Assembly: GCA_946699065.1 (NCBI GenBank)
Contig: CAMPDV010000939.1
Span: forward strand, 91,903-155,902
Direction of reading: 5' to 3'
Length of the DNA: 64,000 bases
Origin: Loxodes magnus
Lineage: Eukaryota > Ciliophora > Karyorelictea > Loxodida > Loxodidae
Shown: positions 1,577 through 60,606 of the stretch, in pieces
Layout of the letters: each line of letters opens with the position of its first letter
Numbering within the stretch: position 1 is the stretch's first letter
Made by a program: the position numbers and the translations under genes
The notes under the pieces: model-generated
Databases searched by the model: none
The model's input: only the letters and a program-made list of their open reading frames with translations
Told to the model about the DNA's origin: nothing

Positions 1577-4500
1577 ATGTCAGAAGCAACTTAGTATAAT
1601 CGAAAAGGAATCTAACTATTCAAAGAGGGAAATTATCTTTAAGCTATTGAGTATTTCAATATAGCTATAATATTAGACCATAATGATGCAGCTGGACATA
1701 ATAACAAAGGATCGACATTGGAAAAGTTAGGGAAATACTAAGAAGCGATTTAGAGCTATGATGTAGCTCTTAAACTAGACCCTAATAAAACAGCTGTACA
1801 TGGTAACAAAGGATTGGCATTGGGAAAGTTAGGGAAATACTAAGAAGCGATTTAGAGCTATAATGTAGCTCTTAAACTAGACCCTAATAAAGCAGCTGTA
1901 CATGGTAACAAAGGATCGGCATTGGAAAAGTTAGGGAAATACTAAGAAGCGATTTAGAGCTATGATGTAGCTCTTAAACTTGACCCTAATAATGCAGCTG
2001 CACATAATAACAAAGGATAAGCATTGGAAAGGCTAGGGAAATACTAAGAAGCGATTTAGAGCTATGATGTAGCTCTTAAACTAGACCCTAATAATGCAAC
2101 TGTACATAATAACAAAGGATTGATATTGGAAAAGTTAGGGAAATACTAAGAAGCAATTTAGAGCTATGATGTAGCTCTTAAACTTGACCCTAATAATGCA
2201 ACTGTACACAATAACAAAGGATCGGTATTGGTAACGTTAGGGAAATACTAAGAAGCGATTTAGAGCTATGATGTAGCTCTTAAACTTGACCCTAATAATG
2301 CAGCTGCACATAATAACAAAGGATAAGCATTGGAAAGGCTAGGGAAATACTAAGAAGCGATTTAGAGCTATGATGTAGCTCTTAAACTAGACCCTAATAA
2401 TGCAACTGTACATAATAACAAAGGATTGATATTGGAAAAGTTAGGGAAATACTAAGAAGCGATTTAGAGCTATGATGTAGCTCTTAAACTAGACCCTAAT
2501 AAGGTAACTGTACATGGTAACAAAGGATTGATATTGGAAAAGTTAGGGAAATACTAAGAAGCAATTTAGAGCTATGATGTAGCTCTTAAACTAGACCCTA
2601 ATAAAGCAGCTGTACATGGTAACAAAGGATCGGCATTGGAAAAGTTAGGGAAATACTAAGAAGCGATTTAGAGCTATGATGTAGCTCTTAAACTTGACCC
2701 TAATAAGGTAACTGTACACAATAACAAAGGATCGGTATTGGTAACGTTAGGGAAATACTAAGAAGCGATTTAGAGCTATGATGTAGCTCTTAAACTTGAC
2801 CCTAATAATGCAGCTGCACATAATAACAAAGGATAAGCATTGGAAAAGTTAGGGAAATACTAAGAAGCGATTTAGAGCTATGATGTAGCTCTTAAACTTG
2901 ACCCTAATAATGCAACTGTACACAATAACAAAGGATCGGTATTGGTAACGTTAGGGAAATACTAAGAAGCAATTTAGAGCTATGATGTAGCTCTTAAATT
3001 AGACCCTAATAAGGTAACTGTACATAATAACAAAGGATTGATATTGGAAAAGTTAGGGAAATACTAAGAAGCAATTTAGAGCTATGATGTAGCTCTTAAA
3101 CTTGACCCTAATAATGCAACTGTACACAATAACAAATGATCGGTATTGGTAACGTTAGGGAAATACTAAGAAGCGATTTAGAGCTATGATGTAGCTCTTA
3201 AACTAGACCCTAATAATGCAGCTGCACATAATAACAAAGGATAAGCATTGGAAAGGCTAGGGAAATACTAAGAAGCGATTTAGAGCTATGATGTAGCTCT
3301 TAAACTAGACCCTAATAATGCAACTGTACATAATAACAAAGGATTGATATTGGAAAAGTTAGGGAAATACTAAGAAGCAATTTAGAGCTATGATGTAGCT
3401 CTTAAACTTGACCCTAATAATGCAACTGTACACAATAACAAAGGATCGGTATTGGTAACGTTAGGGAAATACTAAGAAGCGATTTAAAGTTTTGACAAAG
3501 CTATTCAGCTAAATTCTATTCTCCCAGACTTTTACTAACATAAAGCTTATTCACTTTATTAGCTAAATAATTTTTCTGAAGCAATTTAGTGTCTTAACAT
3601 AGTTATTTAGCTTGATTCAAACTGTGCAGTAGCTTATTACTACAAAGGTTTATCTTTGTAAGCTTTAAATAAAACTATTGAATCTCTCTAATGTTTTATT
3701 GAAGCCAACAAATTAAACCCCTAGTTTAAAATTCCCTAAATAGATATTGTTTCTTTAGATGTTTAATAATAGAGTTCCATTACTATAGATCATATATGAC
3801 AGATTTTATATTAAAATGGTGCTGGTTATGATAATAATTCTAAAATTAGAATATTAAACTATAGAATCTTAATTCCTAATATATAATTTCTAGATGACTT
3901 ATAAGTACTAGCTAAAGATTAATATGGAATTGTCTATCTTATTACTATTGATGGGTCTACTTATGCTCTTAAAGTATTTCACTAAAATACTGATCTTCAT
4001 ATTTTATTAGATTAGTTCTATTTCGAGTGTAAAGAACTTCTATTAATAAACAGCTTAAGAGTTTAAAGACTTACAGGAGTTGCTATTGATACTTAAGAAC
4101 AAGGAAGTTACAATTTATGCCTCTTAACAGATTTTTAGTGATTTGGTAGTTTATTCTAATAAACTTAGACTAAGTAGCTATTCAAAGAAAGTCAAATAGG
4201 ATCTCCTTTAAGATATTACTAGAAACTTAATTTACTTAGTTAAATAGCAGAAGGTCTAAAGGCTATTCACTCTAGAAACTTAATACATAAAGAACTAAAA
4301 TCTTTAAATATTCTACTAGATAAGCAATATTAACCCAAAATAGTTATTTTAGGATTATTCGATTCTACTCATTGGTTAACAACAATAGAATAAAAAGGAT
4401 TTCATTAATGAATGGCTCCTGAATAATTTGAAAGAAATGTGACTATTAAAAGTGATATCTGATCTTTAGGTTGCATCGGAATAGAGATATTCAATGAAGA

Positions 4501-4912
4501 AATGCTTTATCCAAATATAAATGAATAAGAATAACTAAAATAAATAGTTTATATTAATAAAATGATTCCTAGGTTTTCAAACGAAATACTATAAGAACCT
4601 GAATTAACTGATCTATTTTACAGATGCTTAGCTTTCGACCAGAACATTAGACCTGATATAGATTATTTTATAAATTAGATAGAAAGACTTAAATAAAAGT
4701 GAAATCCATAAAGATAAGATGGAGATATAAGTTAGTAGGGTCAAACTAAAAAAATGAAGTAAGAATAAAGTATAAAATAATAAAGTTAAGGTTAAGCTTT
4801 TTTATTAGAGGAAGACTCATAAGAATTCAAGTTTGAAAGTTTAAAAATAAGTAAGATGGATGAGAAGAAGAGTTGAAGGAAGAAACTTTATATAAACGAT
4901 ATAATTTTATAA
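1577..4912 (+). CDS. TPR-repeat pseudokinase A
   Basis: One uninterrupted frame of 1,112 codons under the reassigned code. The ATG at 1577 begins MSEATQYN, as in paralogue B. Residues ~15-640 are TPRs: a divergent first unit, then 18 near-identical 102-bp units (34 residues, KYQEAIQSYDVALKLDPNN), then about two divergent units. A protein-kinase-like domain fills ~780-1040. The VAIK-type lysine (YALKVF), WMAPEQF and DIWSLGC are present. However, the glycine loop is degenerate (LAKDQYGIVYL), HRD is replaced by HKE, and DFG by ILG, so catalysis is unlikely. TGA encodes the Trp of WMAPE and DIWS. The basic tail (EKKSWRKK) is shared with B and F. A scaffold or signalling role is inferred. The TAA stop at 4910 was chosen by aligning the ends of A, B and F. 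Confidence 0.9.
1679..3490 (+). repeat. 18-copy 102-bp in-gene tandem repeat (TPR units)
   Basis: The landmark GGGAAATAC recurs every 102 bp without exception from 1730 to 3464, giving 18 units with no indels. Units differ at only a handful of sites, mainly LDPNN/LDPNK, the AAA/HGN variants and EKLGK/VTLGK. Higher-order duplications of several units are visible, because the same unit order recurs. The frame is never broken, so the array is coding and has been homogenised by unequal exchange or gene conversion. One unit (around 3136) has AAA TGA TCG where the others have AAA GGA TCG; with TGA as Trp this is only a Gly-to-Trp change. Confidence 0.93.
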
Positions 4913-21499: not shown

Positions 21500-23540
21500 T
21501 AAATGTTAATTTTATTTATTTTAGAGCTCAATCAAGATCTACAAGGTAAAAAGTAAAGACTAGAGTCTTTTCTTAAGGATTGCTCTTTTCATCAGAAAGA
21601 TTCGTTACTTCAATTTATTATAGAAATCAAATAAGCTCTTCTAGGAAATAAGTTCAGACTTAATGTTGTTCATTGGATCATTCATTTCATCAGCTACATT
21701 CTTTGCTTTATATGAATATAGAGCTCAATCATTCTTTTCAAGGAAACAAATTCAGACTTAAGGATTTTCTTAATAGTGACTCATTTGTTTAGCTTGATAC
21801 GTAACTTCCATATTTTTTAGAGTTCAATCCATCTCTTCAAGAAAAAAGTTAGGCCATGATCTTGCTCTTAAAGATCAATAATTCGCATGCTAGATTTGTT
21901 GTTTTGCCTTATCTACAGAGCTCAATCAAGCTTTCAATGAAAAAAGTAAAAACTTGAGGATATTCTTAAGCGCTGCTCATTTCATCAGCAAGATTCGTTA
22001 CTTTGACTTAATTATAGAGTTTAATCAAGCTCTTTTAGGAGACAAGATCAGTTTTGAGATTGCTCTTTAGATCGCTCATTTCAACAGCTAGATTCTTTGC
22101 TTTACATAAATATAGAGCTCATTTAAGCTCTTCGAGGTAAAAAGTTTTGAGATAAGGACTATCTTAAGGATCACTCATTTCATCACTAGATTCGTTACTT
22201 TTACTTTTTTTAGAGATCAATCAAGATCTTCAAGGAAAAAAGTAAAGACTTGAGTCTAATCTTAAGAATAGTTCTTTTCATCAGCTAGATTCGTTATTTT
22301 GATTTAAATATAGAGTGTGGCCTATCTCTTCAATTAAATAAGTTTTGACTCTAACTTGATCTTAATGATCATTCATTTCATTTGATTCATTACTTTGATT
22401 TAATTTTGTTCTCAATAAAGCTCTTCAAGTGAAAATTTTTTTGTCTTTCCTTTGGGTTTTATACATAAAATTCGTTCTCTTTTTTTCAAAAATTTTCTTA
22501 TTTTTTCATTTCTAACTATTCCTTTTTTAAAATAAAGTTTACTCATTTAATTTTTTTTCTTTTTTATATTTTTTTAACTTGAAATAGCTAGAAATTCATC
22601 CTAGTATCTTTTTTTGCCTTTCTTAATCATATTTTTCATATTTCTACTTTAACTTTTTTGATTTTTTAAACAACTTAAACTAGCTCTTATATGTTATTAT
22701 TTTTGATTTAAAACATTTTTACTCATTCATTTGCTACTTTATTAAACTAGAACAATCTTTCAAAGTTTACTGGATTTTTTCTTTTTTTTATCTTTCAACC
22801 TGTTTCTTCATCTTCATCTTCTTTTTCCTTTTCCTAACTAAATTTATATCTACCTCTCACTTTTTCCTTAAGCTTAGTTTTAATTTTTCCTTTTTCAATT
22901 TTTTATTTTATTTTCAACTTTCAACACATTTACTTTTTTTAACTTGATCGAGATTTTTAAGATTTCAGAATTTTGCTATATCTTTTATCTTCCAAAGATT
23001 TTTTATGATTGTTTTCAGCATACTTAACTCTTTTTAAAACTAGAATTAGATCTTAAAGTTAGCTGAGTTTATCCTTATCTTTTTTAAGCCTTCCGGTCCT
23101 CAGGCTTCTTTCTTTCCTTCAATTTCTTATTAATCTTGATCAAGTTCTTAAACGTAACCAAGTATCATTTTTGCCTTTATAATTTTACTCCTTTATTTCT
23201 TCAACTACTTTCATTATTTCGACTTATTTTTAAACCAATTAAGCACTGCTTTATTACTTGGTTTAACCTTATCTTTCTTCGAGACTTTCTCATCACTTCT
23301 TCTTTCATTCCTTTGTCTTCTATTTAAAACTATTTTCAGTCTCTTAAGAGTAACTAAATTTCGGTTGTAGATTTTAAACTCTCAAGCCTTTCATTTTTCA
23401 GCTAATTTCATTCCTTCGACATCTTTTTAGTGCTAGTCCAAGCTCTTTAAGATTATAGAGTTTAGTCTTATCTCACTTCAAGCCTTTGTATTCATCAGCT
23501 TTGATTAACCTTAGAATATACATTTTCACTTTTTCCATTT
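21500..23540. repeat. Degenerate 99-bp tandem array, locus 2
   Basis: To ~22,440 the units carry GAGCTCAATCAAGCTCTTCAAGG, GACTTGAG, and CATTTCATCAGCTAGATTCGTTACTTTGACTTAA. Landmarks near 21,522, 21,621, 21,721, 21,820 and 21,918 give spacings of 98-100 bp. From ~22,440 the units become T-rich and resemble the second subfamily of locus 1. Minus-strand reading of the clearest units gives a 33-residue heptad-like text (VTNLADEMSDLKSNLKS...LFSLKSLIEL), as expected for a coiled coil. Small indels stop any frame from persisting. Confidence 0.75.
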
Positions 23541-24349: not shown

Positions 24350-27300
24350 TTAAAAAAGTATTAAAATTAATAATATCTTCTTATAAAAATTGTATTTCCT
24401 TCAACTCTTCTTCTCTTTCTTCTCACTTATCTTTATATTCTCCAACATTATCTCTTGCAATTCATTTTATGAGTTACTCTAATATTCTCCACTTTATCTT
24501 TATATGTTTTATCCCTATACTTCCTTCATCATTTTATTCCTTTCTTACTAACTTATATCGCCATCTTATCTTTATGGATTTCACTTTTATTTTAGTCTTT
24601 CTATCTAACTTATAAAATAATCTATATCAGGTCTAATGTTCTGGTCGAAAGCTAAGCATCTGTAGAATAGATCAGTTAATTCAGGTTCTTATAATATTTC
24701 GCTGGAAAACATAGGAATCATTTTATTAATATAAACTATTTATTTTAGTTATTCTTATTCATTTATATTTGGATAAAGCATTTCTTCATTGAATATCTCT
24801 ATTCCGATGCAACCTAAAGATCAGATATCACTTTTCATAGTCACATTTTTGTCGAATTGTTCGGGAGCCATTCATTGATGTAACCCTCTTTATTCTATTG
24901 TTGTTAGCCAATGAGTAGAATCGAATAATCCTAAAATAACTATTTTGGGTTAATATTGCTCATCTAGCAGAACATTTATAGATTTTAGTTCTTTATGTAT
25001 TAAGTTTCTAGAGTGAATAGCCTTTAATCCTTCTGCTATTTAACTAAGTAAATTTAGTTTCTTAAAGAATTTTAAAGTAGAGTCTTATTAACTTTCTTTG
25101 AATAGCTACTTAGTCTAAATTGATTATAATAAACTTGCTTTAAACTCTAAATCAGTTAAAAGGCATAAATAGTAACTTCCTTGTTCTTAAGTATCAATAG
25201 CAACTCCTGTAAGTCTTTAAACTCTTGAACTATTTATTAATAGAAGTTCTTTGCACTCATAATAGAACTAATCTATTAATTTCTATTGATCAGACTTTGA
25301 GTTAAATTGCTTAAGAGCATAACTATATCCCTCGTTAGTAATAAGATAGACAATTCCGTACTAATCTTTAGCTAATTCTTATAAGCTATCTAGAAATGCA
25401 ATATTAGGAATTAAGATTCTATAGTTCAATATTCTAATTTTAGAATTATTATCATAACCAGCACCATTTTAATATAAAAGTTGTCAAATTTCTTCAATAG
25501 TAATGGTATTTTTAGCTTGGATGACTTAAAATATATTACTTGCTTAGGGAATTTTTAGTTAAGGATTTAAGGTTTTAGCTTTAGTAAAACATTAGAGTGC
25601 TTCTTGAAATTGATTTAAAGCCTAATGAACTAGACCTTTATCATAATAAGCTTTTGCTAAATTAGGATCAAGCGAGATAGCTAACCAAAAACTTTAAATA
25701 GCTTCTTAGCATTTTCCTTGCTTTTGCAATGTCAATCCTTTATTATGATGTATTCTTGCATTATTGGGATCCAGTTTAAGAGCTTTATTATAGCTCAAAA
25801 TGGCTTCTTCTAATTTGCCTAAATCATGCAATGCTGACCCTTTATTATAGTGTACAGCTGTATTATTAGGATCTATTTTAAGAGATATATCATAGCAACA
25901 AACAGCTTCTTAGTATTTTCCTTATTTTTGCAATGCCAATCCTTTATTACATTGAGCAGCTGTATTATTAGGATCTTATTTAAGGGATATATCATAGCAA
26001 CAAATAGCTTCTTAGTACTTTCCTAATTAATGTAATACCGACCCCTTAATTTGATGTGCAGCTGCATTATTAGGATCCAGATTAAGAGATATGTCAAAGC
26101 TCGAAATAGCTTCTTAGTACTTTCCTAGATTTTGTAATGCTGATCCTTTATTACAATATGTAGCTGCATTATTAGGATCCAGTTAAAGAGCTGAATCAAA
26201 GCTCGAAATAGCTTCTTAATATTTTCCTTATTTTTGCAATAACGATCCTTTATTATGATGCGCAGCTGTATTATTAGGATCCAGCTTAAGAGCTTTATCA
26301 AAGCTTGAAATTGCTTCATCTAATTTTCCTAGAATTTACAATGTTGATGCTTTATTACAATGTGCATCTGTATTATTAGGGTCTAATTTAAAAGATTTTT
26401 CAAAGCTCTAAATAGCTTCTTGAAATCTTCCTAGATTTTGCAATGCCAACCCTTTACTTTGGTGTGAAGCTGCGTTATTAGGATCCAGTTGAAGCGCTTT
26501 ATCAAAAAACTGAATAGCTTCTTAGTAGTTACCTTATTTTTACTATGCAGAGCCTTTATTATGATATGTAGTTGCTTTATTAGGATCCAGTTTAAGAGCC
26601 TTATTATAGCTCTAAATAGCTTCTTAGTATTTACCTTGATTTTCAAGTGATAAACCTTTATTATGATGTGGAATTGCATTATTAGGATCTAATTGAAGAG
26701 ATATGTCAAAGCTCTAAATAGCTTCTTAATCTTTTCCTTATTTTTACAATAACGATCCTTTATTGTGATGCGCAGCTGTATTATTAGGATCCAGCTTAAG
26801 AGCCTTATTGTAGCTAGAAATAGCTTCTTCGAACTTTCCTAAATATTGCAATGCCGATCCTTTATTACAATGTGCAGCTGTATTATTAGGATCCAGTTAA
26901 AGAGTGGAATCATAGCTCGAAACAGCTTCTTAGTACTTTCCTAGATTTTGTAATGCTGATCCTTTATTACAATATACAATTGCATTATTTGGATCTAGTT
27001 AAAGAGATATGTCAAAGTTCGAAATAGCTTCTTCAAATTTACCTTATTTTTGCAATATCGAACCTTTAATTCAATATGTAGTTGCATTGTTTGGATCCAG
27101 TTTAATAGCTAAATCAAAACTCAAAATAGCTTCTTGAAATCTTCCTAGATCTTACAATGTTGACCCTTTATTACATTGAGCAGTTATATTATTAGGATCC
27201 AGTTAAAGAGCTTTATCAAAGCTTGATATAGCTTCTTAATATCTAGCTTATTTTTACAACGCCAAGCCTTTGTTACAATGTGCAGGAGCGTAATTAGGAT

Positions 27301-27400
27301 CTAATGAAATAGCTATATTGAGGTACTCAATTGATTCAGAATAATTGGCTTCTTTTAATAGTTTGAATCCTTCAAGATTATATTAAATTGCTTCTGACAT
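24350..27400 (-). CDS. TPR-repeat pseudokinase B
   Basis: One intact frame of 1,017 codons on the minus strand. The ATG at 27,400 starts MSEAIQYN. About 20 TPR units follow; these are diverged from each other, unlike those of A. The C-terminal kinase-like domain is almost the same as A at the DNA level (for example ELTDLFYRCLAFDQNIRPDI). It keeps the VAIK lysine and WMAPEQF, with TGA as Trp, but has HKE for HRD and ILG for DFG. In APEQF this copy uses CAA where A uses TAA, which is direct evidence that TAA means Gln. The conserved tail EKKSWRK precedes the inferred TAA stop. It is probably a non-catalytic scaffold. Confidence 0.9.
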
Positions 27401-31346: not shown

Positions 31347-33581
31347 ATGTAAGAACAGATATAATATACTATTATAGCAAAGTAATCATCCTAATTACCA
31401 AACTATTAAGAAACTATACAGTATTTCCATGTACCTTTACCACTCAATTCTAATTATAAACCTGCCTGAAACTAAAAAGGATTAGTTTTAAACCGTTTAT
31501 AGAAATATGAAGAAGCTATTGAGTGCTTTGACAAAGCTATTGGACTTGATCCTTATGACGTGACTGCCTATCACTATAAAGGATTAAGTTTAAACTTTTT
31601 AGAAAGAGATATTGAAGCTATAGAGTGCTATGATAAAGCTATAAAACTCGATCCAAGAATACCAACTGCTTATCACTAAAAAGGACTATCTTTACACTAT
31701 TTAGGGAAATATTAAGAAGCTATCGAGTGTTTTGACATATCTTTAAATCTGGATCCTAATTTAACGAAAGCTTATCATAATAAAGCATTAACTTTATAAA
31801 AGCTAGGAAAATATGATGATTCTATCGAGTGCTATAATATAGCTATATCGAAAGATCCTAATGAAGTAACTGCCTACTACAACAAAGGATTAATTTTAGC
31901 AAATTAAGGAAAATTTGTCGAAGCTATTGACTGCTACGATAAGGGAATTTAAATTGACTCTAAAGATAAGAATATCTATCACTAAAAAGGACTTGCTTTG
32001 GCTAAACAAGGTTAGATGAATGATTCTATTGAGTGTTACAATATGGCTATACAACTTGATCCTACCTACGCTATTGCTTACTATGATAAAGGATTAGCTT
32101 TAATTTAATTACAAAAATAAGCTGAAGCTTATTAATGTTTCAATATAGCAAAAAGTTTAAGTCCTGACTCAACAATTATCTACTAAAATAGTGAGTAACA
32201 ACTAGACGCTTTAGAAAAATATGATATGACTAAATAATACTAAAGCATAGTTAGTCCATTAAACTACAAACAAATTGAAGATAAACAAATCTAAGAAGAA
32301 AATATACCAACATAAAGTTAGGAACAGTAAGAAATTCAGGTTTTAAACTTCTCGTTTTAATAAAGATCACAGTAACATAGTCAGACTTAAAAGTAAACTA
32401 CTATAGATGATATTTGAAACCTTCTATTTGAAAATGGAGCTGGATTTAATGAAGGATCTAGAATAAGAATTTGAAACTTCTAATAATTAATCCCTAACTA
32501 ATAAGCTTTAAATAGCTTGAAAGTCTTAGGCAAAGGATCATAAGGCAAAGTATATCTTAAAAGTATCGAAGGCTTTAATTATGCTCTAAAAGTAATTAAC
32601 TAAGAGGAAAATATTCAAGAGTTGATAGATAGTTTTTATAAAGAATGCAAAGCTCTCCTAGAAGTAAACAGCGATAGAGTTCTAAAACTGTTAGGTGTAT
32701 CAATTGACACTTCTGTAATAGGATGCTATCGATTTTGTCATTTAACAGATTTTATGACTAAAGGTAGTTTATTTAATGCAATAAATAGCGGAAAATTATT
32801 CTCCGATTATTAAAAAGCATCTCCAATAAGATTTTATAAGAAACTGAACTTATTAAGTTAAATAGCAGAAGGAGTTGAAGCAATTAATTGCAAGAATCTA
32901 ATTCATAGAGATCTTAAATCTTAAAACATTTTACTAGATGATTATGATAATCCTAAAATAGCAGATCTTGGTCTTGTTAATGAAGCTAATATAACTACTA
33001 CTTTGAAATAAAGAGGCTCATACTAATGAATGGCACCTGAGTTATTTGATAACAAAGTAAGTTAAAAAAGTGACATATGGTCTCTTGCTTGTGTTACGGT
33101 TGAGATTTTTAATGAAAGTCTACCTTATTCGAATCAAGCTTCATCGGCATAAATAATAAAAGCAGTTAGTGTTGATTAACAAATTCCTTTCTTTAAAAGT
33201 GAAATAACATAGGAACCTGAATTAGCTAAGCTGTTATATAAATCTCTTATATATGACTAGAACTAAAGACTAGATATCTATACTTTTAAAAGTTAATTAG
33301 ATTAAATAAAGTAAAAATGAAAAGAGTTAAGCTATTAGTCATAGAATGCTTCAATCAATAGAGAATAACTTTCTTACTAGAAACATGAAATTATATAGGT
33401 AAGAATTATTTACCATAATCAGCAAAATCCACCATCCTAGAAGAATAGCATTGACTCAGTCTTTCAGAGATTGAATATCTAAACTCTTGCTCAAAGTTTT
33501 GAAAGCAAAGATACAAATATGAATAAACTAAAGCTGAATTGAATGGAATTATAGACGATAAACAAAACTTAATTAAACTAG
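31347..33581 (+). CDS. TPR-repeat protein kinase D (active site intact)
   Basis: 745 codons in one frame from the ATG at 31,347 (MQEQIQYTII). About eight TPR units cover residues ~45-275. After a Gln-rich linker, the kinase domain runs from ~390 to 655. It has a full glycine loop (LGKGSQGKVYL), VAIK lysine (YALKV), catalytic loop HRDLKSQN, metal-binding DLG (KIADLGL), WMAPELF and SDIWSLACV. It is therefore predicted to be catalytically active, unlike A, B and F. The fold is of the Ser/Thr or mixed TKL-like type common in ciliates. The C-terminus after ~655 is Gln/Asn-rich. A 24-nt GTAAG...CAG at 33,399-33,422 could be an in-frame intron. The end at TAG 33,579 (followed by TAA) is an inference. 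Confidence 0.9.
33399..33422 (+). other. Possible 24-nt in-frame intron in kinase D
   Basis: GTAAGAATTATTTACCATAATCAG has canonical ends and the same length and 5' GTAAG as the units of the array at 57,682-60,093. As 24 is a multiple of three, the frame cannot decide between intron and coding. Confidence 0.3.
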
Positions 33582-42775: not shown

Positions 42776-43523
42776 TTTAATAAAATAATATTTTATCCTG
42801 TTTGATATACTGAGTAGTACTTGGCAAATAATATATTAGAAAGGGTACATAAATATTAACTAAACTTAAGATTATAAACATTAAATAGAAACATTATAGG
42901 AACATTCTATAGAACCAATATTAAAATTAAAAAGAGTAAATAGTTTAAAATAAAGTAAAATGAATATCCATAAATAATAAATAGGAACTAAATATTTGAG
43001 AAGCAATAAAGAACTATTAATGTAAATTATCTTAAATCATCATCAACACTTCATATTTGATTATGAATAGATTTCTAAATAATTATTTTTATAGTATTAA
43101 ATATAAGCACATTAAGTAGCAAGAATAAATGCTTGTCATTAATGTTAATTTCACTATTAGTTTAAATATAAGCAGCTTCCTAGTTTACATAACTTTCTTT
43201 CACTATTTCTATAATTAATATCCTAAATACCAATATTCTAAATATTAAAATTAAAATGTGTTGCTCACATAAGAAAACATTACCTAATTTTTACTAACTC
43301 CTGTTTTCTTTTACTAAAGTAAAAGAAAATACATAAGTCTAACTAACAGTCTTTTTTTATGTATAACAAATGATAGATAAAATATTAGATTAACTAAAAA
43401 AGGATTTTAACTTAGAAACTACAATCATAATAATTAAAATTAATATCTAGCTATTTAAATTAAATTATAACTATCATCAAGCAATATCTAATCTTTATTT
43501 AACTTGTAACCTATATACTTAAA
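42776..43523. other. Upstream region of pseudokinase F
   Basis: AT-rich. The near-palindrome CTTTTACTAAAGTAAAAG (43,309-43,326) could form a hairpin. No other structure was recognised. Confidence 0.35.
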
Positions 43524-46052
43524 ATGGAAGAAACTTATTAATATTGCCAAAAAGCTGCTTAACTATATTAAGAAGGAAATTATCTAGAAGCAATCGAATA
43601 TTATGATATAGCTATTATATTCGATCCTAATCTTGCAGTTGCTCATAATAATAAAGGATTAGCACTAAATAATTTAAGAAAATACAACGAAGCTTTATAT
43701 AGCTATGATATTGCTATTAAGCTTGATCCTATGCTTACACTTGCTCATAATAATAAAGGATCTGCATTATTTAATTTAGGAAAATACAACGAAGCTTTAT
43801 AGAGTTATGATATAGCTATTAAGCTTGATCCTAATCTTGCACTTGCTCATAATAATAAAGGATTAGCACTAAATAATTTAGGAAAATACAACGAAGCTTT
43901 ATAGAGTTGTGATATAGCTATTATATTCGATCCTAATCTTGCACTTGCTCATAATAATAAAGGATTAGCACTAAATAATTTAGGAAAATACAACGAAGCT
44001 TTATAGAGTTGTGATATAGCTATTATATTCGATCCTAATCTTGCACTTGCTCATAATAATAAAGGATTAGCACTAAATAATTTAGGAAAATACAACGAAG
44101 CTTTATAGAGTTGTGATATAGCTATTAAGCTTGATCCTATGCTTACACTTGCTCATAATAATAAAGGATCTGCATTATTTAATTTAGGAAAATACAACGA
44201 AGCTTTATAGAGTTATGATATAGCTATTAAGCTTGATCCTAATCTTGCACTTGCTCATAATAATAAAGGATTAGCACTAAATAATTTAGGAAAATACAAA
44301 GAAGCTTTATAGAGTTGTGATATAGCTATTAAGCTTGATCCTAATCTTGCACTTGCTCATAGTAATAGAGGATTTATATTAAGCAATTTAGGAAAATACA
44401 ACGAAGCTTTATAGAGTTGTGATATTGCTATTAAGCTTGATCCTAATCTTGCAGTTGCTCATAATAATAAAGGATCTGCATTGGATAATTTAGGAAAATA
44501 CAAAGAAGCTTTATAGAGTTGTGATATTGCTATTAAGCTAGATCCTAATAATGCAGACTTTCATATTAGTAAAGGATATGTACTTAAAAAATTAGGAAGA
44601 CATATTGAAGTCATTGAAAGTCTAAACGAAGCTATTAAAATCGATTCTACTAATGCAAAATCCTTCAAATTGAAAGGCTTTTCTCTCTATAAACTAGGAA
44701 ATTATCTTGAAGCCATCGAGTGTTTTAACAAAGCTATCTAGCTTAATCCCTAATATGCAAAAGCTTGGCATGACAAAGGTTTAGTTCATCAAGCTTTAAA
44801 TTAGATTCAAGAAGCCCTCGAATGTTTTCGTACAGCGAATTAAATAAATCCTAATCTATAAATTCCTCAAATAAGAGATATTAATAAAGTAATCTAAGAA
44901 TAATAAGAAATTTCTATAGAAGAAATAGGAAATTTCTTATACTAAAGCAGTGCTAGTGTAAATAGCTAATCTCAACTAAGAATATGAAATTACAAAGAAT
45001 TAGTTCCTGATAATTAATTTCTTAATAGCTTATAAAAACTTTATTAAGATTAATACGGAATTATTTATCTTATTACTATCGATCAATCTAATTATGCTCT
45101 TAAGATATTTAACTAAAAGACTAATATTTAGATATAAATAAATCAGTTCTATTTTGAATGCAAAGAGCTACTGTCACTAAACAACTTAAGAATTCTATAA
45201 CTAAAGGGAGTTGCTATTGATACTTAGGAATAAGGAAATTACAACTTATTTCTTTTATTAGAATTTTAGTTTAAAGCAAGTTTATTCTAATAAATATAGA
45301 CTAAATAACTATTCAAAAGCAATCAAAAAGGATCTGCTTTAAGATTTTATAAAAAACTAAATTTACTTAGTTAAATAGCAGATGGCTTATTGTCAATTCA
45401 CTCCAGAAATTTGATTCACAAAGAGATGAAATCTATAAATATTCTATTAGATAATGAAGACTAACCTAAAATAGTACCTTTTGGATTATTCGATTAAACT
45501 AACTGATTAACTATATTAGAATAAAAAGGCGTACATCAGTGAATGGCACCTGAACAATTTGAAAAGAATGTGACAAAGAAAAGTGATATCTGATCTTTAG
45601 GTTGTATCGGGGTTGAGATATTCAATGAAGGATTACTTTATCCTAATATAAATGAATAAGAATAACTAAAGCAAATAGTTTATATCAACAAAATGATTCC
45701 TATGTTTTCAAACGAAATATTATAAGAACCTGAATTAACTGATCTACTCTACAGATGCTTAGCCTATGACCAGAATATAAGACCAGATATTGATAGTTTC
45801 CTGAGTTAGATAGAAAGATTAAAGCAGAAGTGAAATCCTTAAGAGTAAGAGAGATATATAAGTTATTAGGAATATAATAAAATGATAAAGGAAGAAGAAG
45901 GTATTAACAAACAATACTAAGCTTTAGAGAAGAAGGTTATAACAGAAGGATTTAAAGAGATAAATTTCGCAAATTGGAAGATAAGCGAAAGTAAGGAGAA
46001 GAAGAGCTGATGAAATAAGTATTTGGAAGATGATATTATTAAATTTTATTAA
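43524..46052 (+). CDS. TPR-repeat pseudokinase F
   Basis: 843 codons in one frame from the ATG at 43,524 (MEETYQYCQKAAQLY). Residues ~5-435 are about 12 TPR units, many near-identical (KYNEALQSCDIAIKLDPNLA). The kinase-like domain covers ~510-770. The VAIK lysine (YALKIF), WMAPEQF and DIWSLGC are kept, but the glycine loop is degenerate, HRD is HKE, and DFG is PFG, so it is probably inactive. It has CAG in NQFYFEC where A and B have TAG, and CAG before WMAPE where A has TAA, which supports both Gln assignments. The tail EKKSWWNK...DDIIKFY aligns with A. The TAA stop at 46,050 is inferred by that alignment. Confidence 0.9.
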
Positions 46053-57492: not shown

Positions 57493-57681
57493 AATGTTTA
57501 GTGCTAATCAAATCTAAATTTCTACATTCAAAAAGTTTAAGAAATTATCTGCTAAAGGACTAAGAAATAGTCACTAATAAGTTTAGTAACTCTAAACTAG
57601 CAAAAGATATCTAAATAGTAAATGAAAAAAGAGTGATTTAAGATAAACTTTTAAAAGAGTTAATTGTTTTCTCAATCTCAG

Positions 57682-60093
57682 CTTTAATAAAAAATTACAC
57701 TCTAAATATAAAAACTCACTTAGGTAATAATTTTACATGCTATAATTAGATAAATAACAGGCTAGCGTAAAAATCTGTTCATATAAATAATTACAAATGA
57801 CATTCTCTAATAAATAATTACCTAAAATGAGCTACTTACTTTCTTTAAAATAAAGAATTACCCCCTATAAGTATTAAATAGATAACATTCTACATAAGTA
57901 TACTTACTGACTAAAATTGAGAAAATACACTCATATAAATAAATACAACCTTAATTAAAATAAAACCATCAAATTATTTATTCGTTCAATCAAAAGTAAA
58001 AATGATACCTAGAGTAAAAAATTACATCTGAGGTATTTTATACCAGCAATTAATAATAAAAGATACCAACTAAAATAATATTTGAATACGAGCTATAATT
58101 AATTTATTACAAGCTATACAAATAAAATTAATTTTACCACCTATAAATATTTAAATTACCTTACATTCTATAAATATTTAAAATATCTCACGCTCTATAA
58201 TATTTAAAATATCTTACTCACTATAAATATATGTAAAGTTTTACCTTCTATAATATTTAAAATATCTTACCTTCTATAAATATTTTAAATATTTTACTCA
58301 CTATAAATATTCAAAAAATATTACTCACTAATGATATATAAAATATCTTACTCACTATAAATATATGTAAAGCTTTACCTTCTATAAAGACTTAAAATAT
58401 CTTACCTTCTATAAATATTAAAATATCTTACCTTCTAAAAATATCTAAAATAGCTTACAATCTATAAATAATGAAACTTCTAGCCATCTTTAAGTGTAGA
58501 ATATTACTCACTATTCATATTTAAATAGCTTACATTCTATAAACATTTAAATATCTAACCATCTATAAATATTTATATAACCCTACATTCTATACGTTAT
58601 TTAAAATGCCTTACTCTCTTTAATTATTTAAATATCTTACAATCTATAAAAAAGTTAAATACTTTACAGTCTATAAATATTCAAAATACCTTACAGCCTA
58701 AAATATTAAAATAGTCACATTCTTTGATATAGAATATTACTCACTATATATTTAAAATGCTTTACATTCTATAAATATTAAAAGAATCTTGCTCACTATA
58801 AATGTTTATAGCTTACTTACTATAAATATTTAAAACCTATTACTCACTATCATTATTTTCAATATCTTACAGTCTTTAAATCATTCAAATATTTACCCCC
58901 TATAAATAATTACATACTCGCTATAAATCTTTATACCTTACTGTCTATCAATATTTCAAATAAATTACACACTGTAAGTAATTATCAATTCTTACCATCT
59001 TAAAGTGTTCAAATATTTTACACACTATAAATATTTAAAAGTTCCTACCCCCTATAAACTTTTAAAATATCTTACATTCTATAAATCATTCTAATATCTT
59101 ACCCCCTATAAATGTCTCTAATATCTTACAATCTATAAATATTTAAACTTCTAGCCATCTATAAATATTTAATATATCTTACTTCCTTTAATCACTTAAG
59201 ATATATTACTACCTATAAGTATTCATCAGCTCTTACGCTCTTTAATCATTTAAATTATAATACTCCCTAAAAGATTTAATATACCTTACTCACTTTAATC
59301 ATTTAAATCAATTACACACTATAAGTATTTAAATCAATTACACACTATAAGTATTTGCAATATCTTACATTCTATAAATATTCAAAATTCTACATCCTAT
59401 TCATATTTAAATATTACCTTCTATAAATATTTTCAATGTCTTACCTTCTATCAATATTTTCAATATCTTACCCCCTATAAGTATTTCAAATATCTTACAT
59501 TCTATAAGTATTTCAAATATCTTACCAACTATCAAAATTTCAAATATCTTACATTCTATATTAAGTACTATGCCCTCTTATTTTCATTTCTTACCTTCTT
59601 TGTTTGTAAATGTTACTTGCTAATTCTAAGTAATTTACTTTCTAATTTGATAGATTACCCGCCTTTATTTATTTCCTTACAATCTTCTTTATATTTTACA
59701 TTCTAATTTTATGTTTTACTTCCTTTATTTAGATACCTTTTACAATCTATTTTTATAATTTTACATTCTAAAAAATTCAATTTTAATACTTTCTAACTTA
59801 AACCTTTACTCACTTTTATTAATATGTTACATACTTTTTTAAAAATTACCCTCCTATATTTTATTCTTAACTTTGCGTAAATTCCTTTTAACCTATTGTT
59901 TACATTTTTTACTTTCTCCTATTTAGATTATTTATTACTTTCTAATTATAGATTATCTTATACGTTCTATTCTAGCATTAATTACTCAACATTGCTTTCA
60001 TTTTATTAAAAACTGTTTATTTTATTCATTACTTTCTAGCTTTACTTTTTACCATCTGTATTTAATCTTACTTCCTATCAATTATATTGCTAC
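57682..60093 (-). repeat. Tandem array of ~80 intron-like units separated by single triplets
   Basis: On the minus strand the array reads GTAA(G)...(T)AG units of 13-25 nt, nearly all followed by exactly three bases before the next GT. Between ~58,090 and ~59,520 units are related (GTAAGATATTTTAAATATTTATAG, 24 nt) and repeat every ~27 bp. Between ~59,540 and 60,093 unit sequences are unrelated to each other, yet keep GTAA, AG and the triplet spacing; examples are GTAATCTATCAAATTAG-AAA, then GTAAATTACTTAGAATTAG-CAA. Triplets vary: AAT, AAG, TGA, GGG, ATT, ATG, TGT, ACT and others. A few spacers are 4, 6, 8, 21 or 22 nt. Units near 57,700-58,080 are more degenerate. Confidence 0.85.
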
Positions 60094-60606
60094 AATCATT
60101 CATCCTTAGCTCTAACTAAACTTCTCCTCAATCCTCCATTTAATTTAGACTTAGCCATCTAACTAACTTTTCTTTTTTATCAATAGAGTTCATAAAAATC
60201 AGCATCGATTCCTTCTGCTTATTCTATTTTTTATTTCAGTTATTCAATAGTTTCTCCTTCCTCTACTATTAAGTTAATTTCTTCTTTATTTTAAGTGTAA
60301 ATCTAAACTTTTATTCCTTTTCCCTCTTTTTATAAGGTTATCTCCTTTTTAGTTTCTTCAAGATTAAGCTAATTGTATTCTCTTTCCTTTTTTACTTTAT
60401 TGGTCTTACTCATCTTTTGAACTTTTACCTTCATTGAAATCACCTTTTTTACACTTTCTATTTGGACACTGGTTTGAACCGTCTCTTAAGTATTCTTCTA
60501 GAACACATTTTTGGCATACTCGATGTCCACAAGGAAGGGTCAGAGAAATGGCTATTGAATAGTCGAAACGACATAAGCATTTGGAACAGCTTTAAGAAAG
60601 CCCCAT
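57682..60606 (-). CDS. RING-finger plus ubiquitin-like domain protein with hyper-fragmented 3' half
   Basis: The minus-strand ATG at 60,606 starts MGLSQSCSKC. Residues ~6-52 form a RING finger: CSKC, CGH, CQKC, then CPNRKC, so the C3HC4 ligands are in order. A frame change at ~60,430-60,465 is solved by an intron of 22 nt (another choice is 31 nt). A ubiquitin-like domain follows: KVQIYTQNKEEINLIVEEGE then TIEQLKQKIEQAEGIDADFY, matching the ubiquitin beta-grasp pattern. Together they suggest a ubiquitin-pathway protein, probably an E3 ligase. After a basic segment (KLNGGLRRSLVRAKDE) the rest is the intron-like array at 60,093-57,682, so the protein continues only if about 80 tiny introns are spliced. 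Coding-looking text resumes after 57,682 (LRLRKQLTLLKVYLKSLFF), close to the end of the convergent gene. Confidence 0.7.

Follow-up and report, generated by a model that had tools for sequence, protein, structure and literature searches.

Predicted serial introns around codon-sized exons in a RING-UBL gene family of the ciliate Loxodes magnus

What kind of gene carries, behind a RING finger and a ubiquitin-like (UBL) domain, a long series of intron-like units kept three nucleotides apart? The question is raised by a locus on the minus strand of a 64-kb stretch of the Loxodes magnus genome, which we refer to as the window. According to the main text of the report on the 706-Mbp macronuclear assembly of this species, it uses the karyorelict code, in which UGA stands for Trp or stop, and its introns, as mapped by RNA-seq, have a mean length of 19.3 nt and a mode of 17 nt, with 93% measuring up to 25 nt (PMC11441545). 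Within the window, TAA and TAG are read as Gln, and TGA is found at conserved Trp sites of TPR-kinase-like genes, as in Q-TGA-MAPE. The reading that we favour, at a probability of about 0.78, is that the units are spliceosomal introns around codon-sized exons in a RING-UBL family, and that these exons encode a tail of conserved, variable and again conserved parts; its splicing is inferred from genomic sequence.

A dynamic-programming parse divides positions 60121-58070 of the minus strand into 81 units with a GT or GC start and an AG end, in agreement with the original prediction of about 80 units split by 3-nt spacers. In this first parse, which favoured such spacers, 75 of 81 measure 3 nt, two measure 4 nt, and lengths of 8, 9, 11 and 27 nt occur once each; the units themselves span 16-28 nt, with 24 nt in 32 of the 81, so that the predicted range of 13-25 nt has to be shifted upwards. 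The first parsed unit (60121-60105) lies inside the UBL domain and is probably no intron. Judged by comparison with relatives, the array starts with intron 1 at 60093 and continues, less regularly, to about 57682. The motif AG-N{3}-GTA with a further GTA upstream at intron distance occurs 67 times in 60100-57601, against a mean of 1.6 and a maximum of 5 in 300 first-order Markov shuffles, and any other spacer length between 0 and 9 turns up there 0-4 times. The spacing persists among dissimilar units as well: those at 59,540-60,093 had been described as unlike each other yet triplet-spaced, and this is borne out by 17 AG-N{3}-GTA motifs in 60100-59541, compared with 0.6 expected and a maximum of 4 in 1000 shuffles. 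Elsewhere in the 64-kb window, no three successive GTA...AG units were found at 3-nt spacing. Across the window and its relatives, a parser that scored spacer lengths of 0-12 alike, and in which chains stop or are interrupted at broken units, these being left uncounted, returned 3 nt for 1426 of 1460 spacers and a length that is not a multiple of 3 for 15. The observation of serial GT/GC...AG units with 3-nt spacers behind a RING-UBL gene is confirmed.

How much weight can the constancy of three bear? Per nucleotide, it is weak evidence in the 27-bp part of the window alone and strong evidence over ten older arrays, where only 2 of 393 spacers depart from a multiple of 3, compared with 20.2 expected (P = 3.7e-7), while 180 of 437 intron lengths do so (units of 20-27 nt). 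The original prediction had also singled out a few non-triplet spacers; in relatives, these pieces correspond mostly to ordinary longer exons of 27, 6, 21 and 21 nt.

To which gene family does the array belong? In the genome that we searched (705,730,643 bases in 7843 contigs), the head of the gene has at least 151 matches, a lower bound since only 150 of 2633 first-look candidates were scored, and the family may be much larger. The relatives compared comprise 26 loci of 10 kb, four of 1.3 kb, one of 3 kb and one of 1.5 kb. Of 27 sequences, 26 (the window and 25 of the 26 10-kb loci) have an array behind the RING-UBL head, the exception, L014, having neither array nor head; in L018, the head match is limited to residues 41-168. 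The head begins at its N-terminus with the RING finger, which is matched by several RING models, PF00097 above its curated cut-off and the others below theirs, and the RING Cys/His positions are kept in 27-28 of 28 paralog heads, a count that excludes the window and L018. Over 27 unique heads, pN/pS is 0.52 in frame versus 0.70 and 0.85 in the shifted frames. In its zinc-binding residues the head resembles a RING E3 ligase, and its role may be E3-like; a search of a set of 5.8 billion proteins gave no homolog of the head at E <= 0.001 among 48 candidates. In most relatives RING and UBL form one open frame, and the UBL domain of paralog L022 is complete (Pfam ubiquitin 1-70/72), unlike in the window copy, where the RING, the first half of the UBL and its second half lie, by eye, in different frames. 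These comparisons make the window copy a family member that has diverged and no longer keeps a continuous frame. Its defects are the head frameshifts, a 4-nt spacer (GCGG, in the 5' block) and altered 3' exons, and it may be decaying or carrying assembly errors. A more strongly decayed relative by eye, L040 (G000:C6:138000-139499), offers a natural contrast to the intact copies; a chain of six units is absent from the 1.5 kb read there. On one contig (C156 of G000), seven family heads lie on one strand, 64-116 kb apart.

The paralogs reveal a common anatomy: a head exon is followed by intron 1, a 5' block of diverged units, a middle of 27-bp repeats, a 3' block and a tail exon (Table 1).

Table 1. 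Parts of the RING-UBL array gene in the window, in order along the minus strand
Feature	Position	Strand	Description	Basis
RING finger part of head	60391..60606	-	Query residues 1-72; ATG at 60606	Paralog comparison, Pfam
Ubiquitin-like (UBL) domain	60094..60407	-	Pfam ubiquitin 2-37/72 in the window copy	Pfam
Intron 1 (predicted)	60075..60093	-	19 nt, phase 1; junction codon T/GA	Comparison with paralogs by eye
5' block	59553..60074	-	About 20 diverged introns, mostly 3-nt exons; phase-1 peptide EIFNKMKAMLKQRESQKEFTQKVLKKYWKYSETKGE	Template columns
Longer 5'-block exons	60012-59986; 59892-59872	-	27 nt and 21 nt, respectively; one further exon of 6 nt	Relatives
Middle	58114..59552	-	27-bp units: intron near GTAAGATATTTTAAATATTTATAG plus variable 3-nt exon	
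3' block	57682..58113	-	Further 3-nt exons with a few longer exons among them; encodes family-conserved DYxxFKWE; irregular in the window copy	
21-nt exon of 3' block	58008-57988	-	Window copy without GT donor there	Relatives
Tail exon	57600..57681	-	Phase-1 peptide EIEKTINSFKSLSQI...; 57600 is the limit of the stretch assigned	

Intron 1, which is 19-21 nt long across the paralogs, sits by eye one base into the codon that follows '...LELKLKD'. The introns are in phase 1 by this placement, and codons would therefore be split between exons. A phase-0 peptide, NLNGKK..., had earlier been read from the triplets; it is not the predicted product, as intron 1 interrupts a codon after its first base. 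Phase-0 reading is ruled out by where intron 1 lies in the UBL frame, together with the phase tests of the 5' block described below. An automatic parse of 12 copies yields 64-130 introns per gene. The exon sum was divisible by 3 in 7 of the 11 copies parsed by a first automatic version (15 tried) and in 1 of the 12 parsed by a second (13 tried), both of which mis-cut some exons; in a manual model (9+14+22 nt), the frame closes for the L022 type.

What, then, speaks for splicing and for translation of the spliced product? One set of signals comes from the 5' block, whose introns are mostly 16-22 nt long. Our alignment of this block includes 26 of 31 sequences in 22 unique rows, with 111 of 499 annotated sites exonic; left out were L014, which has no array, and L029, L030, L035 and L037, which are without an exact anchor intron. 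In the 22 unique rows, 52 indel events are purely intronic, none is purely exonic and two span both, and the diversity of donor (0.022) and acceptor (0.015) bases is 8-12 times lower than that of intron interiors (0.176). This argues for constraint on splice sites and exon length, while the exon letters change as fast as those of the introns: exon diversity, at 0.187, equals the level of the intron interior, a point against the favoured reading. The kind of exon change, in turn, points to phase 1. Mean BLOSUM62 scores of non-identical residues are +0.15 in phase 1 versus -0.60 and -0.65 in the other phases (19 gap-free unique rows; column-shuffle null -0.40, sd 0.20), and pN/pS is 0.55 in phase 1 versus 0.67 and 0.70 (20 rows). 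Synonymous single-step changes, with 0.186 in phase 0, 0.195 in phase 1 and 0.218 in phase 2 against a column-shuffle null of 0.202, do not separate the phases.

The 3' block repeats part of this pattern. Its donor and acceptor diversities are 0.047 and 0.033 against 0.221 in the intron interior, and 48 indel events are intronic compared with 13 that are purely exonic, some of them common to several copies. The phase-1 peptide FDYAxFKWEKC...LYQDVK...KSEIEITFNSFKYLSQ is recognisable in 20 unique rows, and its DYxxFKW motif is kept in 19 of the 20 unique exon rows, which represent 25 copies; in our model, seven introns would cross DYxxFKWE and cut its core at every codon. pN/pS in the single-codon exons of this block does not favour phase 1 (0.55, against 0.31 in phase 2 and 1.22 in phase 0), the BLOSUM test on 8 gap-free rows stays at its null value, and pN/pS of the tail exon is 0.85 in phase 1, 1.09 in phase 2 and 1.03 in phase 0. 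Phase 1 is a tentative assignment for the 3' block, as is the reading of the near-tail exons of distant copies. In L029, L015, L012, L030, the window, L019, L018 and L009, two introns abut between the exons AAA and AAT, the AG of one being followed directly by the GT of the next; by eye, this resembles a zero-length exon, as in recursive splicing. A search for uninterrupted copies that would encode the spliced 3' peptide without introns gave no convincing full-length match among 58 candidates, the leading hits being the tail exon or gapped pieces only, so that no processed copy confirms splicing.

Could the array be spliced, at least in part, and yet serve as a 3' UTR or regulatory tail, with translation ending at the first junction? 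The codon across intron 1 is TGA, never TGG, in all of the 26 copies checked by eye, and UGA is the only stop of the karyorelict code as described in the main text of the genome report (PMC11441545). The same text, however, has UGA read as Trp when it is far enough from the poly(A) tail (PMC11441545), and in the window TGA occupies conserved Trp positions of kinase genes. Moreover, the 5'-block exons beyond the junction are constrained like the head (phase-1 pN/pS 0.55 versus 0.52), and a conserved 3' peptide follows further downstream. We consider such an untranslated tail improbable.

The middle of the array has the look of a satellite. It is a true tandem repeat, with a repeat 18-mer that occurs 3070+2973 times in the genome (the reversed 18-mer, being a shifted piece of the repeat itself, is no control). 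In the younger arrays the 24-mer GTAAGATATTTTAAATATTTATAG is nearly identical between units, with a diversity down to 0.006 in L026 and about 51 of 55 24-nt units identical in L028. Nor are the splice-site bases of the middle better conserved than the intron interior, with 0.039 and 0.031 versus 0.029 in young arrays and 0.182 and 0.197 versus 0.164 in old ones, a comparison in which the manner of picking units favours the interior. Is the array, then, a plain 27-bp satellite that starts with GTAAG and ends with TAG by chance and is neither spliced nor coding? In such a satellite, variation should be evenly spread. Instead, the triplet is the variable part: in 18 of 18 arrays measured (L012, L018 and L014 were left out for having too few units), its diversity is 0.56-0.70, against 0.006-0.28 for the intron, an excess of 2.4- to 103-fold over the 24-mer. 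The 3-nt spacing, furthermore, holds among dissimilar units, namely in the diverged part of the window, in the 5' and 3' blocks and in nearly all of L039, and the same coding head precedes the array in 26 of 27 sequences.

L039, which was located by a generic pattern search, is a distant and very diverged UBL gene (Pfam ubiquitin 4.1e-10); by eye only, a RING is suggested as well, truncated where the locus ends. Its 46 introns of 14-24 nt are nearly unrelated to each other (likeness 0.509 versus 0.524, sd 0.006, in shuffled sequence), and still 41 of its 45 spacers are 3 nt long; AG-N3-GTA occurs 55 times against 2.7 expected and a maximum of 9 in 1000 shuffles. Since the spacing persists in L039 among introns that have hardly any likeness left, and also in the 5' and 3' blocks, a satellite as sole explanation, which the original prediction had listed among its options, is ruled out, and we regard a plain satellite as highly improbable. 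Genome-wide, the pattern of a double unit with 3-nt spacers matches 38,062 times, compared with 881 for the reversed pattern. The proposed selection on splicing and frame finds backing in the low variability of paralog splice sites, the intronic indels of the 5' block and the spacing in L039. Highly improbable, too, is a middle that remains unspliced and codes for 9-residue repeats with two variable residues per unit between spliced flanks, for although 24 nt is a multiple of 3, so that a retained unit stays in frame, although the phase-1 translations of retained units are without a stop, and although protein repeats commonly combine a uniform backbone with variable positions, 180 of the 437 units of 20-27 nt in the ten older arrays would shift the frame if retained, and the units share their GTAAG...TAG ends with the flanking introns.

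How did the middle come to vary? The idea that an intron was amplified with one flanking codon fits this part, close paralogs differing by whole units. In six close pairs, blocks of whole units have been gained or lost; over about 800-1500 aligned intron bases, these pairs show 0-18 substitutions, whereas 3-29 of 123-210 triplets differ. Within the middle triplets (287 array-triplet types), AG is depleted (36 versus 73.6 expected), as is GT (23 versus 51.8), as if cryptic splice sites were avoided; TA is depleted as well (19 versus 42.7). Diversifying selection, recombination that homogenises introns, or repeated insertion of introns into coding sequence are possible causes of the triplet variability. 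Donors are broken in some 24-nt units of L022, where GT is changed to GA or TT, and of its relatives; since 24 nt is a multiple of 3, retention of such a unit would add 8 codons in frame.

Under the favoured reading of spliceosomal introns around codon-sized exons, one long head exon would be followed by coding sequence interrupted by introns of mostly 16-25 nt, with 3-nt exons between them. Each removal in phase 1 would make a codon from the final base of one exon and the two leading bases of its successor, and the spliced frame would run from the conserved 5' exons through the variable middle and the conserved 3' exons into the tail exon. As a 3-nt exon can hardly be defined, the introns would presumably be recognised singly, by intron definition. 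Intron-plus-codon units of the middle would be gained and lost in blocks, and with every such event in frame, the protein would obtain a rapidly changing segment between conserved flanks. All of this presupposes that each unit is spliced and the middle translated; its diversity may then be useful, for example in target recognition by an E3-like protein.

A further-reaching and more tentative proposal, which we think possible though doubtful, is that the family forms a combinatorial system for protein diversity. Recombination between 3-nt cassettes would take place at the near-identical 24-nt introns, each of hundreds of RING-UBL genes would carry a shuffled but always in-frame variable segment flanked by conserved parts, and exon skipping would add in-frame isoforms. 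The commonest middle triplets are ATG, AAT, ATT, TGA, GGA and TGG, and because phase-1 codons draw on two neighbouring cassettes, a few common triplets would yield mainly twelve amino acids; D, N, V, Q, E, M, K, W, Y, R, L and G make up about 92% of the predicted middle residues.

What else does the window contain? Four TPR-kinase-like paralogs lie at 1650-4790 (+), 24518-27400 (-), 31350-33400 (+) and 43374-45929 (+), with long open stretches, no intron seen and TGA at conserved Trp sites; in the first of them, a Gly position within the TPR array is also occupied by a TGA. A 98-bp tandem repeat of about 8 copies with 65% matches occupies 21505-22315. Pfam searches with ten long ORFs and three-frame pieces (one strand, chosen regions) yielded nothing but TPR and the RING-UBL head; two more hits, antisense to the TPR gene, came from the ten ORFs and are regarded as artefacts. 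Neither Rfam families nor tRNAs were detected in the window, and a crude scan for coding potential showed little besides the TPR-kinase genes and the RING-UBL head.

How does the array compare with known systems? Tiny introns are known from ciliates such as L. magnus, Stentor and Blepharisma; the array units are likewise GT...AG and fall within the published L. magnus range, while a series with codon-sized exons is not mentioned in the main-text sections of the L. magnus intron paper, one legend of which names 'orphan introns', a term that the text retrieved leaves unexplained (PMC11441545). The units have the GT...AG ends and the length of about 16-25 nt of L. magnus introns, with the exception of a few that are GC-AG or measure 14-15 or 26-28 nt. 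Conserved splice sites with free interior and length are a feature of the 5' and 3' blocks and not of the middle. Among units of 16-21 nt, drawn from related copies, 87 of 401 have a length of 3n, as do the 24-nt middle introns. Literature searches over open-licence PMC papers listed none with serial codon-sized exons described in its title or at the start of its abstract.

Micro-exon genes (MEGs) of schistosomes have exons of about 6-36 nt and long introns. The array differs in that most of its exons are exactly 3 nt, smaller than those of MEGs, and its introns mostly 16-25 nt. As in our family, judged by its predicted exons, the coding region of MEGs consists mostly of very small symmetrical exons, in families whose products evolve quickly (PMC4350168). 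In the parts of that study consulted, MEGs appear restricted to platyhelminths and their products carry a signal peptide (PMC4350168), whereas the array family belongs to a ciliate. With RING-type E3 ubiquitin ligases that contain a UBL, the head shares the RING Cys/His pattern and a full UBL, unlike the C-terminal part predicted from the array, which is without a Pfam match and has no credible match in the PDB (best E 0.33).

If spliced, the array would contain exons far below the size for exon definition, with nearly every codon split, and would test the limits of intron definition. It would also show that introns and single codons can multiply together without breakage of the frame, and would represent a new way to make variable proteins. 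With minisatellites and tandem-repeat genes, the family shares the gain and loss of 27-bp units in blocks between close paralogs; it departs from them in that its units combine a conserved, intron-like part with a variable, coding-like remainder of 3 nt, and in that the architecture persists without the repeat in L039. Such conserved introns next to hypervariable exons would turn the usual pattern of genes around.
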